This document shows, in pieces, positions 6,713 through 26,656 of a DNA stretch of 26,934 nucleotides. Made by a program: the position numbers and the translations under genes. This DNA is from an uncultured bacterium (GTDB lineage Bacteria > DUMJ01): NCBI GenBank assembly GCA_937958695.1, contig CALGNK010000044.1, positions 1-26,934 on the forward strand. Reading direction: 5' to 3'. Every line of letters begins with the position of its first letter. Positions within the stretch are counted from its first letter, which is position 1. The notes under the pieces were generated by a model. That model saw only the letters and a program-made list of their open reading frames with translations, made no database searches and was not told where the DNA came from.

Positions 6713-7514
6713 ATGTCTTTGTACAGAATTTACTTTTTCCGTAGCTTTTATAGTTTTTCCTATATACTATATACTTGTTGGTAGTATGATGACTACCTCT
6801 GAGATATTTCGCCAGCCACCATATTTGTTCCCCCCTTCTCCTAAGGAAGCTATTACTAATTATTCTACAGCTTTTAGAATACTAAGCCGTTATGCCTTGA
6901 ATAGCCTTATTATAACCTTTGGAGTGATGATTTTAGTTTTATTACTTGCCCCAGCAGCTGCCTTTGCATTGGCTAAACTTAAGCTAAAATTGGGAGATAT
7001 TTTTAATTTTATCTTTGTTCTTGTTCAGATGCTCCCAATAACTGCTACTATTATTCCACTGTATCTCTTTTTCCGGGAATTTAAGCTTACAAATATTCTA
7101 GGAGTAATATTAGCCATATCTTCTTTTTCTGTTCCATTTATAGTAATAATGCTTACTTCCTATATGAGAGCCTTTCCTGTTCAATTGATAGAGTCTGCAC
7201 AGATTGATGGAGCTAGCCTTTCTAGAATTTATTGGAGAATAGTCTTACCTTTATCTATGCCAGCATTAACCACTGCATCACTGTTTGCTTTCTTACAAGG
7301 ATGGGGCAACTTTGTATTTCCTTTGACTCTTCTTCAAGACGATAGGCTGTATCCTCTAAGTATCCGCTTGTTTACCTTTGTAAGTGAGTTTGGTGTCCAA
7401 TGGAATTATTTAATGGCAGGAAGCTTTGTATATTCTATCCCATCAATAATAGTGATATTAGTAGGTAGTAAGTTTTTAATATCTGGTTTAACTGCAGGGG
7501 CGTTCAAGGAGTAA
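6713..7514 (+). pseudogene. Sugar ABC transporter permease (MalG type), 5' end damaged
   Basis: This is the MalG-like inner-membrane subunit of a carbohydrate ABC importer. The ORF from ATG 6786 lacks the usual first membrane helix. Upstream bases still encode it in the same frame (FIVFPIYYILVGSMMTTSEIF), but that frame has no start codon. An ATG at 6713 reads MSLYRIYF in another frame, and removing one T from the run at 6734-6738 would join the two into a normal MalG N terminus. Membrane helices and the EAA loop (ESAQIDGASLSRIYWRIVLP) are otherwise intact. No ribosome site precedes 6713, and no partner permease or binding protein is nearby. A shortened functional protein from 6786 (242 residues) cannot be excluded, but would start without the first helix. 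Confidence 0.75.
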
Positions 7515-16724: not shown

Positions 16725-18023
16725 CTAGTTCTTAGAGTTAATCTTTTTATAGAGAGTAATGAATTCTTTTACCGTTTCGTTAGAGGGATTTTCTAAGCCA
16801 TATCTAACTCTTATATAGATCTCTCTTATTCTAGGTAACACTTCCTTATTAAAAAATTCTTTTGACTTTGAGTATATATCTAGAGTAGTATCACTCTCTT
16901 TTAGACCTATTTCTTTCTCTTTACACATCATAAGGTACCTTTTATAGTATAGCCTAATCTTTTCTATCGGATCCTTAGGCCTAAGTCTCTCTAGAAATTT
17001 CTTCAATATGTTAGAACCCTCTTCTTTCTTTATAGTAATGAATTCTTTTGTTTCTATATAATCTTCCTCTTTAGGGGTACGTCTAGATTCATACCTTTTG
17101 AATAGAATAAAGATTATATAAGCTAGAATAATTATTATTAGTATCCCTAGAATGATTATCAGGATATAATTAGTGCTAGAAGATGTAGCTGTTTTCTCTT
17201 TTATTATTTCTCTCCCTTCTTCCATCCTTGTCATATTGAAGATCCTTTTAGTTAACTCATCCATCTTTATTTCTGGGATTTCTCGCTTTACCGGTTTGAA
17301 GAACCTACCTAAGAATGAGACAATCTTATCAAGGATATATAAGACCCCAAATATAAGCCATGCTAACCCCGTAAGGAAACCACTGATAGTATAGGTAAAT
17401 CCAATTGAGATACCCCTCCAGATAATAGCCCTTACTGCCGGTAGGCTTAGAGTAAATGAGAGGGATATTATTCCAATAGAATATGCCAGGTTTACCTTAT
17501 TTATATCCTTGTTTTCGCTGGAGCTATATTCTATATACCTTAGAGTTCTTAATAGAATAATAGTAGAGACTAAATAGACAACCAGATATGGTAAGACAGA
17601 TCTGCTGTATATTATAGCCTTGTCTGGAAATGCGAGTGATACACCTATAGAAATTATAGTAATTGCTATGATTATAGGCACAACCCTTTCAAACTCCTCT
17701 ACGCTAGAGCCATAAGTTAGCCTTTTGATAATTCTGGACAAGAGATATATAGAGTATAGACCTACTATAGATATAAATACAATATCTAAAGCATCTCTCA
17801 TAAATAGAAGAGGAGAGAATAGCAAAAATCCTAAAGGAATGGATATTATCTTTTTAGAGTAAAATCTAAATATAAAGAGAGAATTCAAGATAGTCCATAG
17901 ATATAAAATTTCAGTACGGTGAAGCTCAACATTGTTTAGCATACCAATAGAATTCAGTATAAATCCCAAGATTCCAAATATTAGAGATATATTACTTATT
18001 ATCTTGAGGTATCGTATATACAT
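16725..18023 (-). CDS. DUF4129-type membrane protein
   Basis: About 432 residues. The N-terminal ~265 residues hold roughly eight hydrophobic segments. A loop follows, then another membrane helix (ILIIIILGILIIIILAYIIF type, near residue 290-310) and a cytoplasmic C-terminal domain. The end (DPIEKIRLYYKRYLMMC, then YIRVRYG) matches the DUF4129 pattern found beside MoxR and DUF58 genes, often as the tail of transglutaminase-like proteins. No transglutaminase catalytic triad is seen. An upstream in-frame start at 18056 exists, but the ATG at 18023 has a good GGGAG ribosome site 8 bases ahead. The gene overlaps the DUF58 gene by 32 bases and is the last gene of the fluoride-riboswitch operon. Confidence 0.75.
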   Translation of the reverse strand: MYIRYLKIISNISLIFGILGFILNSIGMLNNVELHRTEILYLWTILNSLFIFRFYSKKIISIPLGFLLFSPLLFMRDALDIVFISIVGLYSIYLLSRIIKRLTYGSSVEEFERVVPIIIAITIISIGVSLAFPDKAIIYSRSVLPYLVVYLVSTIILLRTLRYIEYSSSENKDINKVNLAYSIGIISLSFTLSLPAVRAIIWRGISIGFTYTISGFLTGLAWLIFGVLYILDKIVSFLGRFFKPVKREIPEIKMDELTKRIFNMTRMEEGREIIKEKTATSSSTNYILIIILGILIIIILAYIIFILFKRYESRRTPKEEDYIETKEFITIKKEEGSNILKKFLERLRPKDPIEKIRLYYKRYLMMCKEKEIGLKESDTTLDIYSKSKEFFNKEVLPRIREIYIRVRYGLENPSNETVKEFITLYKKINSKN

Positions 18024-19140
18024 ATTCACTCCCTCTTCCTGTATACTTAAGTACACTATCAGAAATAAACTCGAGGTTTTCGTCTTTGAGAGAGATAAGT
18101 ATCACCTCTTGTAATTCAGATGCCAAAGAATTTATATATTCTATATAGGAGTCTAAGACCTTTGGTGTTATTATGATATAGGTAGAACAATTTATATCAT
18201 GCCTATTTAATTTTAAAAGTAGTTCCTCTAAGGTTAGACTTATACTATATGAAGCCCTACCTAGACATTCTAATAGTGATTCTAGGTGAGAGATACCAGA
18301 GGAAGGATAGACAATATTCCTATTTGCCGGTAACCCATGCATAATAGAATTGGTGGCAAATCCATATGGCATTCCAATAGACTCAAATTTCTCCATAACT
18401 CCCCTAGTTATAGATATACACTCTTCTATATCGTCTGGTTTTATATCTACCCAGAAAGGCTTGTCACATTCAACGTTTAGTATAATCATAGCAGTATTTT
18501 CTAGAGTAAAATCAAATTTCTTCACCATAAGATTTCCTGCCCTTAGAGAAGAGGGCCAGTGAATAGTCTTTGCCGGTTCAAGGCCAGTATACTCCTTTAC
18601 ACCTATAATCATTGTAGGGTCATCTATAATCCATCGCTGAACTGAGAGATTTCCATTATAATTTCCATAAGGGACAAGTTTTCTTTCTAGGTCTATACTC
18701 TTTGGTAAGACTATTATCTCTTGATTGTACCTTATGCTCCTTACAAATGTATTTAGCCCCAGTAAGTCTCCACCAATTAACGAGACATCTTCGAAAATAT
18801 ATCTTCCCCTTCTATAGGCTACCGCAGTATAAATCCTTTTTATACGCTGAAATGGCAATAGGAACATAGTTATTGTATGGTATAAAAACTCTACGGTCTT
18901 AAACTGGTCCGCCTTAAATTTATACTCTATACCTCTAGGGAATCTCTCTACAATCTGAAGGAATGTTACAGGAAGAAGCTTCCTATTCTCTATAACAGTG
19001 GTTATATGAAAATCTTCTCCTATCTCTAAGATCTTTTTAGATATCTCTCTCTGATATGTAACTCCAAAGAGTGTATACTTTTTAGATAATCTATTAAGTA
19101 TTATTCCAACAATTATCAAAAAGAGCAATAAGTAAGCCAT
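17992..19140 (-). CDS. DUF58 domain protein (MoxR-associated)
   Basis: A 382-residue protein with one N-terminal membrane helix (AYLLLFLIIVGIILNRL), a beta-rich segment with FPRGIEYKF, and the DUF58 hallmark GLEPAKTIHWPSSLRAG followed by LMVKKFDFTLENTAMIILNVE. The last part has the shape of a von Willebrand A-like fold, as expected for the family. DUF58 proteins are coded with MoxR AAA+ ATPases and are thought to be their substrate- or metal-binding partners. The ATG directly follows the moxR stop codon (TAG-ATG), with AGAGGT ahead, so the two are coupled. Confidence 0.88.
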   Translation of the reverse strand: MAYLLLFLIIVGIILNRLSKKYTLFGVTYQREISKKILEIGEDFHITTVIENRKLLPVTFLQIVERFPRGIEYKFKADQFKTVEFLYHTITMFLLPFQRIKRIYTAVAYRRGRYIFEDVSLIGGDLLGLNTFVRSIRYNQEIIVLPKSIDLERKLVPYGNYNGNLSVQRWIIDDPTMIIGVKEYTGLEPAKTIHWPSSLRAGNLMVKKFDFTLENTAMIILNVECDKPFWVDIKPDDIEECISITRGVMEKFESIGMPYGFATNSIMHGLPANRNIVYPSSGISHLESLLECLGRASYSISLTLEELLLKLNRHDINCSTYIIITPKVLDSYIEYINSLASELQEVILISLKDENLEFISDSVLKYTGRGSEYVYTIPQDNK

Positions 19141-20085
19141 CTAGACCTCTTCTACAGGAACCTTTATGGTATCAAGAACAGAGTTTATAAACGAATAGAT
19201 ATTTTTGTCTCTGCTTAACCCCTTCAGAATAACCCTATGGTTCAATACATAGGGAGCCACCTTTTTTATGTCCTCTGGGATTATATAATCCCTTCCATTT
19301 ATCGCTGCATAGGCTTGACTTGCTTTAAATAGAGCAATAGTTCCTCTTGGACTTACTCCAAGCTGGACAACATCGATATTTCTTGTCTTTTCTATAATAT
19401 CTAAGAGATAATCCATTACTTCTTTGGAAATTCTTACCTCATTATAGACGCTTCTAACATAGTTTATCTCTTCAAGAGATACCACACTTTCTAGATCCTC
19501 TATGAGGTCTAGCTTTTTATTCCTATTTACTATTTCTATCTCTTCTTCTCTTGTTGGATAGCCAATCTTGACTCTCATAAAGAATCTATCTAGTTGAGCT
19601 TCTGGAAGAGGAAATGTTCCAAATGATTCTATTGGATTTTGAGTTGCTAGAACCATAAATGGCTCTGGAAGTTTTCTAGTTACGCCATCGGTAGTAACCT
19701 GCCTCTCCTGCATAGCCTCTAAGAGGGCAGATTGGGTCCTAGGGGTTGCTCTATTAATTTCATCAGCAAGTAAAATATTTGTAAATATTGGCCCTGGTTT
19801 AAATTGAAAATCTCCAACCTTTTGATTATAAAAGTTTATACCGGTAAGATCAGAAGGAAGTAAATCTGGGGTGAACTGAATCCTCTTAAAATCGCACCCT
19901 ATAGTCTTAGCAAATGCCCTTACCAGCATAGTCTTCCCTAATCCTGGGACATCTTCAAGAAGGATATGTCCTCCACAGATGAAGGCTACTGTAACAAGCT
20001 CTATCACCTCATCTTTACCCACTATAACCTTTGAGACATTCCTTATAATCTTATCTTTAAAGTTTACAAATGCTTCTATATTCAT
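19141..20085 (-). CDS. MoxR family AAA+ ATPase
   Basis: A 314-residue AAA+ chaperone-type ATPase. Visible are Walker A GGHILLEDVPGLGKT (~residue 36-50), the pore-side TPDLLPSDLTG, Walker B ILLADEINRATPRTQ (~105), sensor 1 ATQNPIES, the arginine-finger region LPEAQLDRFFM, and sensor 2 GVSPRGTIALFKAS. MoxR ATPases work with DUF58/vWA partners in maturing or inserting metals into other proteins; the target here is unknown. AGGAGG lies 5 bases before the ATG at 20085. Expression is predicted to depend on the fluoride riboswitch and its terminator, which end just upstream of the ribosome site. Confidence 0.93.
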   Translation of the reverse strand: MNIEAFVNFKDKIIRNVSKVIVGKDEVIELVTVAFICGGHILLEDVPGLGKTMLVRAFAKTIGCDFKRIQFTPDLLPSDLTGINFYNQKVGDFQFKPGPIFTNILLADEINRATPRTQSALLEAMQERQVTTDGVTRKLPEPFMVLATQNPIESFGTFPLPEAQLDRFFMRVKIGYPTREEEIEIVNRNKKLDLIEDLESVVSLEEINYVRSVYNEVRISKEVMDYLLDIIEKTRNIDVVQLGVSPRGTIALFKASQAYAAINGRDYIIPEDIKKVAPYVLNHRVILKGLSRDKNIYSFINSVLDTIKVPVEEV

Positions 20086-20101: not shown

Positions 20102-20138
20102 AAAAAATGACTTCTACCCTAGACCGAGTAGAAGTCAT
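20102..20138 (-). terminator. Fluoride-controlled attenuator (intrinsic terminator) before moxR
   Basis: On the minus strand ATGACTTCTAC (20138-20128) and GTAGAAGTCAT (20118-20108) form a perfect 11-pair stem with a 10-base loop, followed by six T (20107-20102). The 5' arm is also the 3' strand of the riboswitch pseudoknot, so terminator and ligand-bound aptamer exclude each other. This predicts transcription stop without fluoride and read-through with it. Confidence 0.92.
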
Positions 20139-20178
20139 CAACCCCTATGGGGTTATATTAAGGTGGACTTCATCACCT
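20125..20178 (-). promoter_or_regulatory. Fluoride riboswitch (crcB motif)
   Basis: Read on the minus strand from 20178: P1 AGGTG/CACCT encloses the loop ATGAAGTC; a linker follows, then P2 AACCCC-ATA-GGGGTT, then TGATGACTTCTAC. The loop GAAGTC pairs exactly with the downstream GACTTC to give the pseudoknot. Order, spacing and fixed bases (GATGA in the first loop, GATG after P2, CTAC at the 3' end) match the fluoride aptamer, including the crystallised Thermotoga one as I remember it. It lies between a consensus promoter and an overlapping terminator, directly ahead of moxR. A covariance-model search should hit the fluoride riboswitch family. Confidence 0.93.
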
Positions 20179-20184
20179 GAACTA

Positions 20185-20213
20185 ATTATATCACAAAGTT
20201 CATTATGTGTAAA
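20185..20213 (-). promoter_or_regulatory. Promoter of the riboswitch-moxR operon
   Basis: Minus strand -35 TTTACA (20213-20208), 17-base spacer, perfect -10 TATAAT (20190-20185). The predicted start near 20178 coincides with the first base of the aptamer. Confidence 0.85.
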
Positions 20214-20250
20214 ATCATTATTTATATTTTTTATCAAATATAGAAAAATA

Positions 20251-20279
20251 CTAGAGGGTAGCATCACTCTACCCTCTAG
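20251..20279 (-). terminator. Terminator of the glutamate synthase gene
   Basis: CTAGAGGGTAG and its exact complement form an 11-pair stem with a 7-base loop, 20 bases after the glutamate synthase stop. On the minus strand it is followed by TATTTTTCTATATTT, a usable U tract. It separates this gene from the moxR promoter just downstream. Confidence 0.85.
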
Positions 20280-20298
20280 CCTATATTAAAAAGGAAGT

Positions 20299-21867
20299 CT
20301 AATTTTCTAGAATCTTCATACTTTCTTCATAATCCATCTCCATCACATAAGGAAGGCCGGTTACTTTAGACGCTTCTTCAGTAAGACATATTAGATCGCT
20401 TCTATCTATGTACTCTAAACTAAACTTTCTAACTCCGGCCATAAACTGCTTTAAGCCCGTAGCAAGTCTGTCAAAATAGGCATATACACCTAGAGCACCT
20501 GTCGGGATCCTCTTCCACTCTTCTCCATAAATCTTCTCCAAATCTGCTACGGCTGAGAATATTTCTTGAATCTCCTCTCCATATTTCTTATACTCTTGAG
20601 GAGTCTTACCTTCTTTGACTAGTTCTCCTATAGTCTTTCCAACCATAGCGGCAGTCAGAGAAGCTCTGCCCATAGCAACTAATTTAACAAATGGTGCTCC
20701 AAGTGCTAGACCTTTGAATATGTGGTCTTCTAGTGTAAATCCTCCAGCTATAGCTATTGGTGGAACGTATTTGCCTCTTTCTTGGAGAATTTTAGCATAC
20801 CTGTAGACTAGAGATTCTAGATAAACGGTTGGGACTCCCCACTCGTTCATCATTCTCCAAGGACTCATACCTGTTCCTCCACCAGCTCCATCTACAATAA
20901 GAAGATCAATCTTACCTTCAGAGGCACACTTTAAAGCTAGGGCTAAGTCTCTTGGTCTGTAGGCTCCTGTTTTTAAAGAAATATACTTTGCTCCCTTACT
21001 TCTCAATTCATAGACTCTTTTTAAGAAGCCTTCTAAAGAGGCCATACCTAATCTAGAATGTCTTTCAAATTCCTTTATCCCACCCTTACTGTATATTTCT
21101 TGAACAACTGGATCGTCTGGATCTGGATGAACAATGTATCCTCTTTCTTTTAAGGCTTTAGCCCACTCTATTGCGGGGAGTTTTATTTCGCCTCCAATGT
21201 CTTTAGCCCCTTGTCCCCATTTTATCTCTACAAATTTTACCCCCAAACTATCTATAACATACTCTAAAACCTTTAATCTTGAATCTTCTACATTTTCTTG
21301 AACTATAATCTCTCCGTACCCATCCCTTTGCCATTCTTTAAATAACTTAACTCTTCTTTCCATTTCTGGAGAGTGAAGGATATATCCATTTTTAAATTTA
21401 GCATCTGGGTCTACCCCACAGACATTTTCTCCGATGCCAACCATACTTCCAAATATAGCAGATCCTATAGCTACTCCCTCCCAGTTATCCCTTGCTATAA
21501 ATGTAGAGCCTAATCCGGTAGTGAACCAAGGTGCTCTCAGTTTTATATCTCCTAGTCTTGTCTCTATATTAACCTTAGGGAAAGTAGCTACATCTGGATC
21601 TGCTTCTACTCCATGAGCTCCTACGCAAGTTCCACTTATATTAAGGTGAGAAAAGTCTACCGGATAATCTTTCTGAGATCCGGCGGTTATCTTACCATAA
21701 GGTTGCGGATATATGTATTCTCTTCCCCTTACGGCAGACCTGCCTATCTCACAGTATCCAGGACATCCATCTAAACAAGTTACGCACATCCCACTAAAAG
21801 GGGAAAAGTCCTTCTCTCTCAACCTTGTAAGTGTAGCATCAGATGCATTTGGTTTAGAAAAAGACAT
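20299..21867 (-). CDS. GltB-type glutamate synthase FMN domain protein
   Basis: A 522-residue stand-alone protein of the glutamate synthase central/FMN domain type. It should make glutamate from 2-oxoglutarate and ammonia or glutamine together with other subunits, which are not in this window. The N terminus has a Cys cluster CVTCLDGCPGYC (C28, C31, C35, C39), probably an iron-sulfur site. The flavin barrel follows, with IKWGQGAKDIGGEIKLP, VDGAGGGTGMSPWR (~residue 325) and IAGGFTLEDHIFKGLALGA. No glutamine amidotransferase domain is present, so ammonia must come from elsewhere. GTG at 21879 is inside the ribosome site; the ATG at 21867 lies 11 bases after GGAGG and is preferred. The leader carries a predicted ANTAR-target tandem hairpin, which fits nitrogen control. 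Confidence 0.88.
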   Translation of the reverse strand: MSFSKPNASDATLTRLREKDFSPFSGMCVTCLDGCPGYCEIGRSAVRGREYIYPQPYGKITAGSQKDYPVDFSHLNISGTCVGAHGVEADPDVATFPKVNIETRLGDIKLRAPWFTTGLGSTFIARDNWEGVAIGSAIFGSMVGIGENVCGVDPDAKFKNGYILHSPEMERRVKLFKEWQRDGYGEIIVQENVEDSRLKVLEYVIDSLGVKFVEIKWGQGAKDIGGEIKLPAIEWAKALKERGYIVHPDPDDPVVQEIYSKGGIKEFERHSRLGMASLEGFLKRVYELRSKGAKYISLKTGAYRPRDLALALKCASEGKIDLLIVDGAGGGTGMSPWRMMNEWGVPTVYLESLVYRYAKILQERGKYVPPIAIAGGFTLEDHIFKGLALGAPFVKLVAMGRASLTAAMVGKTIGELVKEGKTPQEYKKYGEEIQEIFSAVADLEKIYGEEWKRIPTGALGVYAYFDRLATGLKQFMAGVRKFSLEYIDRSDLICLTEEASKVTGLPYVMEMDYEESMKILEN

Positions 21868-22324: not shown

Positions 22325-22975
22325 ATGGCGATATTCAGTAAAGAAGAAATGAAAAGAATTATAGAAGAGAATGGGTTAAAGACTATGGATGAGGTAGATG
22401 AATTTATTACACAGCTAGAAAAGGAAATGGTAGAAGCAATCTTAGAGGGAGAAATGGATACTCATCTCGGATATCCTAGATATGATCGTGAGAACAAGAA
22501 GACAGATAATTCTAGGAATGGATATACATCTAAAGAGGTCTATGGCAAATCAGGAAAAATAAGAATAAACGTTCCAAGAGACAGAGACTCTTCTTTTGAA
22601 CCTAAATTAGTTAGAAAGAGAGAAAAGGATATCTCCAACATAGAAGATATAATACTACTACTCTACCAAAAAGGTCTAAGCACTAGAGATATCCAAGATT
22701 ATCTACAAAAAATATATAACTGTGAAATATCGCCAGAAACTATAAGTAACGTTACGAATAGAGTTTTGGAAAAGGCTAAGGAATGGCAAAATAGAGTTTT
22801 AGAAGAGATATACCCAATAGTCTTTATAGATGGCTTAGTATGCAAAGTAAAAGATGATGGGGAAGTAAAGAATAAAACAGTCTACATGAAGTGGACGAGC
22901 AAGATAAGAGATTGGCACCTTATACTAGCGGAATTAGCTGTTTACTTTGAGAATAGACTAGGAGGATACCTGTAG
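22325..22975 (+). pseudogene. IS256-family transposase with in-frame internal deletion
   Basis: 216 codons against about 400 for the family. The N-terminal ~180 residues are normal: EGEMDTHLGYPRYDR, NSRNGYTSKEV, VPRDRDSSFEPKLV, the IEDIILLLYQKGLSTRDI helix region and FIDGLVCKV, which carries the first catalytic Asp. After VYMKW it jumps to IRDWHLILAELAVYFENR, the family C terminus. The DDE core between them, with the second Asp and the Glu, is missing, so the product cannot transpose on its own. The reading frame is kept across the join. It could still bind the element ends, or the element could be moved by a full-length relative elsewhere. Confidence 0.9.
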
Positions 22976-25294: not shown

Positions 25295-26656
25295 CTATAA
25301 TCCTTTTTCTACGATCGCTTTTTCTATAGTCTCTCTTAATTCTTCTACCGAAGGAATAATACTTATATATGTGGGTTTCCCATCTATACATATAGTTGGT
25401 ATATTGGGAACTTTCAATTTTATCATACGTGCCACTGATTCTCTTTCCTTTATCTTGTATTCCTTCCATTCTACCTTGTCCTCTAGTCCTTTAATTGCAG
25501 ATTTTACCGCTTCTACAACGTATTGACAAGGAGCACAAGATTCAGAGTCCAGTGTGATTATATCTAAGATGACTTTTTTTGCATTTTTATAGTCAGGTAA
25601 TTTTATATCGATATCTTCGAAACCACTTTTTATATCCTGCCTCATAAACTCTGCTACATCTCCATGGACTGCACTGGCTATGGCTTTTATATTCTCTGGA
25701 GGGGTATTAAAAGGTATGTCACATCCAGGAGAGAGGATATATCCCTTTTTACCACCTATCTGCATAAGATTTTCTGCTTCTCTTATATTATCTAATGGAG
25801 TTCCAAAGAGCATAGTTACAGTAAGCTTTATATTTCCACCTAGGGATACTCCATACTTACTGCATATCTCCTTGGCATATCTTAAGTCAACATTTTCATC
25901 TATTGAAATATTATCAGGCTTACACTTACACATAGCCTCTATATTCCTTGTAGCATCACCACAGACAAAAAGAGAACACGCCTTTCCTCTTTCTTTAATG
26001 TATTCAAATACTGGAATGATATACGGTGTAACAAATTCTTCAAAACTATTCGGAGATATCTGAGATGTCATAGGATCCACAATAGCCACTACATCAACAC
26101 CAGTATCGATATACATTTTGGCACTATTTGTCGAAACATTCTGGCAGAATCTCATAAGTTTATGAAGCTCTTCTGGCTCATCCATCATCTGATAGAATAT
26201 ATCAGTCCCCTTAAGATGCAATGCTAGAGTAAAGGGTCCGATAACAAGTCCATATATGGCTATCTTATCCCCTAATCTTTTAACTATCTCCCTACTAGCT
26301 TTTAGAACTATTGGAAATCTTCCATCCTCCTCTGTTGGTATCTTTAAATCTTCGATAGTTTTCCCTTCTGCTAGTGGGTGCGAAGCTACCGAAGGAGGAT
26401 TTGTATCTGAGTATATAAGTTTACACCCTAGAGCTTCTGCTTCTATTTGAAGGTCAAATGTTACTGGTAATCCATCTGGCTTGTATAGTTCGAATGCCTT
26501 TATTGCCCCTTCAACTATATATTTGTCATTCTTGAAGTACTCTTCTGCACTGACCCCTATAAGACTTGCAGAGTGACAGCCTACAAATGGAACCCAAGGT
26601 GTTCTTTCTACCTCCCCGTTATGTATAGCCTTTAAGAGTAATTCTTTTGAATTCAC
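25295..26656 (-). CDS. UroD/MtaA-like methyltransferase fused to a thioredoxin-fold domain
   Basis: 453 residues. Residues ~1-340 are the uroporphyrinogen decarboxylase superfamily barrel of the corrinoid methyltransferase branch (ELLLKAIHNGEVERTPWVPF, MRFCQNVSTNSAKMY, VDVVAIVDPMTSQISP, GCDIPFNTPPENI). In MtaA/MtbA zinc is held by H-x-C plus a distal Cys. Here the segment reads FVCGDA (~230), so Cys is present but His is Phe; the distal Cys is in SPGCDIP (~313). Residues ~355-453 are a thioredoxin/glutaredoxin-like domain with CAPC (~370) and the cis-Pro segment VPNIPTICIDG. A UroD of haem synthesis is unlikely because of the fusion and motifs. Start is GTG at 26656 after GGGAG. Substrate unknown; methyl transfer with redox partner is inference. 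Confidence 0.82.
   Translation of the reverse strand: MNSKELLLKAIHNGEVERTPWVPFVGCHSASLIGVSAEEYFKNDKYIVEGAIKAFELYKPDGLPVTFDLQIEAEALGCKLIYSDTNPPSVASHPLAEGKTIEDLKIPTEEDGRFPIVLKASREIVKRLGDKIAIYGLVIGPFTLALHLKGTDIFYQMMDEPEELHKLMRFCQNVSTNSAKMYIDTGVDVVAIVDPMTSQISPNSFEEFVTPYIIPVFEYIKERGKACSLFVCGDATRNIEAMCKCKPDNISIDENVDLRYAKEICSKYGVSLGGNIKLTVTMLFGTPLDNIREAENLMQIGGKKGYILSPGCDIPFNTPPENIKAIASAVHGDVAEFMRQDIKSGFEDIDIKLPDYKNAKKVILDIITLDSESCAPCQYVVEAVKSAIKGLEDKVEWKEYKIKERESVARMIKLKVPNIPTICIDGKPTYISIIPSVEELRETIEKAIVEKGL

Follow-up and report, generated by a model that had tools for sequence, protein, structure and literature searches.

A fluoride riboswitch ahead of a MoxR–DUF58–DUF4129-like operon: anatomy, recurrence and possible role in the fluoride response

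The usual targets of fluoride riboswitches are crcB, eriC-F, antiporter, enolase, pyrophosphatase and mutS genes, among others. Here we ask why such a riboswitch should stand ahead of a three-gene operon for a MoxR-family ATPase, a DUF58-type protein and a DUF4129-like membrane protein, as it does in a 26,934-nucleotide stretch of DNA from an uncultured bacterium (the window, by which we mean this whole stretch). To our knowledge, operons of the MoxR–DUF58 kind occur widely, and since most of them lack a known, clear inducer, their function is largely obscure. For the copies considered here the riboswitch names that signal, fluoride, and thereby offers a direct assay for a large unsolved family.

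The riboswitch leader of moxR

The leader and its upstream border comprise the following features:

20250..20280 (-): terminator of the upstream glutamate-synthase-like gene
20185..20213 (-): sigma-70-type promoter TTTACA-17-TATAAT with TG before the -10 box, 11/12 matches
20122..20186 (-): fluoride riboswitch aptamer (RF01734, crcB motif), from the Rfam covariance search
20166..20171 (-): 5' pseudoknot strand GAAGTC, in the P1 loop
20131..20136 (-): 3' pseudoknot strand GACTTC, common to the 5' arm of the terminator
20106..20139 (-): intrinsic terminator of 14 pairs, followed by TTTTGTTTT; it excludes the pseudoknot

A first-pass annotation of this DNA, made from the letters alone, had described a TTTACA/17/TATAAT promoter, a complete crcB-motif aptamer beginning at the predicted first base and a terminator that reuses the pseudoknot strand, all on the minus strand directly ahead of moxR, and each of these elements was recovered at its place. 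In the covariance search that it had proposed, RF01734 was matched at full length with 41.6 bits, exceeding the gathering score (34); the E value is 1.6e-8 when the window is searched and 3.0e-10 when the whole genome is. The promoter (20213-20185) ranks best among the 14 promoter-like sites of the region, and the transcription start predicted from it, at about 20178 and some 7 nt past the -10 box, coincides with the first bases of the aptamer; moxR starts at 20085, 36 nt downstream of the aptamer. Upstream of the promoter, the glutamate-synthase-like gene stops at 20299 and is closed by a terminator of its own (20280-20250), so that the fluoride operon is insulated from it.

The two pseudoknot strands (GAAGTC, 20171-20166, and GACTTC, 20136-20131) are fully complementary, and the second lies inside the 5' arm of the terminator, forming an expression platform in the 5' untranslated region of moxR that is mutually exclusive with the pseudoknot. 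The same reuse of the 3' strand by the terminator was present in all six leaders examined, and between lineages the aptamer loop, the 3' strand and the terminator arm co-vary. The leader has a folding energy of -35.1 kcal/mol, compared with -19.1 kcal/mol for shuffled sequences (z -5.45). In an alignment of 15 riboswitches the cells of P1 and the pseudoknot are 100% paired and hold 22 two-sided changes; shuffled versions average 5.8 and slid controls have 0-2.

Judged by its sequence, the riboswitch itself is an ordinary member of the known class RF01734, which it resembles in aptamer sequence, pseudoknot, overlapping terminator and ON logic, and the difference lies in what it controls, namely moxR-DUF58-DUF4129. 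The class is fluoride-ON (PMC11139923). From the anatomy, the terminator at 20139-20106 would form when fluoride is absent and transcription would halt ahead of moxR; by the known mechanism of the class, which fits the anatomy seen here, fluoride and Mg2+ would stabilise the pseudoknot and withdraw the GACTTC strand from the terminator, and the polymerase would then read through into the three genes.

The three encoded proteins

The operon consists of three genes:

19141..20085 (-): moxR, MoxR-family AAA+ ATPase, 314 aa (Pfam AAA_3, 1.7e-65; PDB 2r44, 1.7e-79)
17992..19140 (-): DUF58-type protein, 382 aa, with an N-terminal helix, an Ig-like and a VWA-like domain and the motif EYTGLEPAKTIHW (hhalign)
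16725..18023 (-): multi-helix membrane protein with DUF4129-like C-terminal helices (hhalign 90.7%, E 1.3e-6)

The names MoxR, DUF58 and DUF4129 given in the first-pass annotation fared unequally: the first stands at the Pfam threshold (AAA_3), but the other two do not and were recovered by profile–profile comparison, DUF4129 less firmly. The window MoxR has both the AAA_3 and the AAA_lid_2 domain; Walker A, Walker B, sensor 1 and the arginine finger are all present, and its motifs DVPGLGKT, ILLADEINR, ATQNP and LDRFF are intact. In the Pfam search the second protein had no DUF58 (PF01882) match above the cut-off, and the third scored 12.6 bits for DUF4129 (PF13559), under the cut-off of 24.8; profile–profile comparison was applied to both because naming by Pfam had failed. 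The second protein then matched canonical DUF58 (hhalign 99.9%, E 8.7e-34) and contains the motif EYxxxxPxKxIHW, and its counterpart in G603, a genome of another phylum (see below), passes the Pfam cut-off (24.0 vs 23.4). The third is probably DUF4129-like at its C-terminus, as suggested by the match to the DUF4129 C-terminal domain, obtained with small alignments. Its reading frame was listed from a GTG at 18056, and the ATG at 18023 is the likelier start.

In the structure model of the DUF58-type protein (mean pLDDT 80.6), an Ig-like domain is predicted at residues 24–147 and a VWA-like domain at residues 211–373, the latter resembling the VWA domains of Rpn10 in a fold search (Z 10.1-10.8); the matches given by VIA-align are only Ig-like and VWA-like, in a search that covered mainly these two parts of the model. 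The MIDAS motif DxSxS was sought in the first VWA strand of the fluoride-linked DUF58 proteins and none was seen at this expected place, which makes metal-dependent client binding of the NorD type doubtful. The model of the membrane protein is all helical (pLDDT 74) and gave no match in a fold search against the PDB, and the protein is poorly conserved.

MoxR proteins pair with VWA adaptors and insert metals or remodel complexes (PMC9976466). The present operon resembles NorQ/NorD, RavA/ViaA and CbbQ/CbbO in that the gene of a MoxR ATPase accompanies that of a partner modelled with a VWA-like domain. Here, however, the partner appears to be tethered to the membrane, it has an Ig-like domain and shows no MIDAS motif, and no gene for a client enzyme lies beside the operon, which is under fluoride control. 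It also resembles Bat and other MRP-type MoxR–DUF58 operons, in which moxR is followed by a DUF58 gene and genes for membrane proteins and which the literature links to stress and the envelope; the difference is again the riboswitch, which is missing from the two such operons that the same genome carries elsewhere. Most likely, the three products assemble into a MoxR/VWA-type machine anchored in the membrane, in which MoxR would supply the AAA+ ring, the DUF58 protein would act as an adaptor tethered to the membrane and carrying the Ig-like and VWA-like domains, and the third protein would be their helical partner in the membrane.

Recurrence and origin of the pairing

A survey of other genomes, also proposed in the first-pass annotation, brought up the same pairing in a sister species, in three Caloramator-family genomes and in nine genomes of a third phylum. 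In the sister species (G001) the riboswitch and the three-gene operon are kept, with a MoxR 93% identical to that of the window, next to a changed upstream neighbour, a glutamate dehydrogenase gene; the third genome of the genus lacks the fluoride-operon MoxR and keeps two other MoxRs. A scan of public genomes for MoxR led to a Caloramator MAG, in which a MoxR 71% identical to that of the window is directly preceded by a riboswitch of 45.1 bits and followed by the same two genes. Two further genomes of its family (G456 and G457) carry the unit, making three in this family of the Clostridia. The pairing is uncommon in that class, since among 391 sampled genomes it was found only in G059, a Caloramator-type genome used as the centre of the sample.

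In a spread sample of 386 genomes, G603 showed the order riboswitch–DUF6062–moxR–DUF58–DUF4129-like gene. A fluoride riboswitch is present in 42 of the 103 genomes of its phylum, the third with the pairing, and in nine checked genomes from two families it stands ahead of moxR, DUF58 and a membrane-protein gene, mostly with DUF6062 first. One of the nine, G848, has no DUF6062, and its DUF58 frame is not resolved in the list of open reading frames used; in an additional genome, G854, the locus is interrupted by a contig end. All riboswitch leaders of this pairing (14/14) score above the Rfam cut-off, and the survey model, R1, had been built without G603, the named phylum-mates or the Caloramator cases. 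The moxR of G857 (L303:956-1902) reads as two overlapping frames, probably owing to a frameshift.

In the MoxR tree, the window protein groups with the Caloramator fluoride MoxRs (88/82) within a clade of Firmicutes (100/99). Its genome is from a different phylum, represented by three genomes, and this placement suggests that the operon was laterally transferred together with its switch. The third-phylum MoxRs form a separate clade beside proteins from Chloroflexota and the paralogue encoded by the window genome itself. A single MoxR origin of the fluoride-linked operons was rejected by the AU test, in which constraining all fluoride MoxRs to one clade cost 55.9 log units (p-AU 6.3e-5). Therefore, fluoride control of the module was probably acquired on two or more occasions, or else an old pairing was followed by later MoxR replacement; under either history, the association of riboswitch and module looks selected, not accidental. 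The covariance hit, the mutually exclusive terminator, the conservation in three phyla and the probable two recruitments of MoxR together strongly support, at the level of sequence, that a fluoride-ON transcriptional riboswitch controls the moxR operon.

Place of the operon in the fluoride response

The suggestion of the first-pass annotation that the three proteins form a fluoride-response system stands as regards fluoride control and membership of a response, given the riboswitch and its conservation in three phyla, while the repair or envelope role that it added can be given only by inference. Regulation by the riboswitch gives good reason to count the operon as part of a fluoride response, fluoride-riboswitch operons can raise fluoride resistance (PMC5533749), and the repeated recruitment of the module supports its use in fluoride stress. 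We think it likely, on balance, that fluoride lifts the attenuation of a dedicated remodelling complex of the MoxR/VWA type, anchored in the membrane and used under these conditions. At least three bacterial groups show the pairing, and some of the genomes concerned have no recognised fluoride pump; the MoxR–DUF58–DUF4129 machine therefore probably helps some bacteria to survive fluoride. By analogy with NorQ/NorD, RavA/ViaA and CbbQ/CbbO, it would remodel or re-mature membrane or metal enzymes damaged by fluoride, and reloading of metal enzymes or protection of the envelope may be the operon's role. A broader proposal, that the module, often with DUF6062, is a non-export defence that repairs or re-matures fluoride-hit membrane or metal-dependent complexes, and the main or only fluoride-regulated defence in some genomes lacking CrcB and CLC, is put forward tentatively, as something possible that we hold to be rather doubtful. 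That the operon lies under a fluoride riboswitch also suggests protein remodelling as a component of fluoride resistance, alongside export and enzyme overproduction.

A different explanation starts from the ATPase itself. As a Mg-dependent enzyme, MoxR could be a victim of fluoride through MgF or AlF complexes at its nucleotide site, and the riboswitch would make more of it, as suggested for enolase and pyrophosphatase. It is established that riboswitches can control fluoride-sensitive enzymes (PMC5533749; PMC11139923), the ATPase motifs of the window MoxR are intact, and dynamin-like GTPases likewise recur near fluoride riboswitches. However, if the purpose were dose compensation, one would expect the housekeeping copy to be controlled, and the fluoride-controlled unit is an extra paralogue: no riboswitch was found when the two other moxR operons of the window genome (contigs C17 and C32) were searched. 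We consider this explanation unlikely.

The distribution of exporters bears on another possibility, namely that the operon serves a form of fluoride transport that has escaped recognition, with the DUF4129-like protein exporting fluoride or protons, or with the MoxR machine maturing an exporter. The first-pass annotation had remarked that no exporter gene is adjacent, which holds within the window but not for the genome as a whole, where three fluoride riboswitches were found, all above the Rfam cut-off, and the second precedes DUF6062–crcB on contig C37. A frameshift within a T/G run interrupts this crcB (L026, contig C37:10439-10773); it may reflect an assembly error or real decay, and the gene is intact in the sister species. 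At locus L025 (5401-6899, with the third riboswitch at 6965-7027), the riboswitch precedes the genes for a zinc-ribbon/HEAT protein and an MFS transporter. In G603 and G853, both 99% complete, neither CrcB nor CLC gave a hit at the Pfam threshold, and the single fluoride riboswitch found is that of the moxR operon; other genomes, among them G855, G856 and G857, lack CrcB and have a CLC protein that may or may not be specific for fluoride. The two genomes with neither family, the multi-helix membrane protein predicted for the third gene and the sharing of DUF6062 between fluoride operons with CrcB and with MoxR are in keeping with transport, but homologous DUF58–DUF4129 operons without fluoride control are widespread, and the membrane protein resembles no solved transporter and, unlike a channel, is poorly conserved, so that we regard transport as improbable.

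The pairing is rare overall and the window genome is a draft of 57 contigs, but it is next to inconceivable that the riboswitch stands here by chance or through misassembly, or that it serves another gene, as the same junction, with matched terminator anatomy, occurs in the sister species, the three Caloramator-family and the nine third-phylum genomes, and these independent genomes rule out the misassembly that the first-pass annotation had considered as well as chance placement.

The remodelling complex that we favour would add a target to this riboswitch class. In the literature searched, we found no report of a MoxR–DUF58-type operon under a riboswitch, nor of a fluoride riboswitch paired with MoxR or DUF58, and the one publication found to name both the fluoride riboswitch and MoxR treats the two separately. 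The target list of the 2012 founding paper was outside this search, and therefore moxR-DUF58-DUF4129 is only provisionally an unreported target.

Two further gene families accompany fluoride riboswitches. DUF6062 genes recur under them, before crcB or before moxR (L003, L010, L012, L190, L231, L271, L275, L278, L280, L286, L288 and L290). Dynamin-like GTPase genes recur beside them in many genomes, at 19 loci (including L159, L162, L114, L217, L223 and L230), the weak local matches at some of these loci reflecting P-loop similarity only; fluoride riboswitch and dynamin were not found mentioned together in the literature searched. Elsewhere in the window, positions 22325-22975 encode a 216-aa Mutator-family transposase that covers about half of the Pfam profile and is therefore probably truncated, and positions 25295-26656 encode a uroporphyrinogen-decarboxylase-like protein fused to a C-terminal thioredoxin domain.
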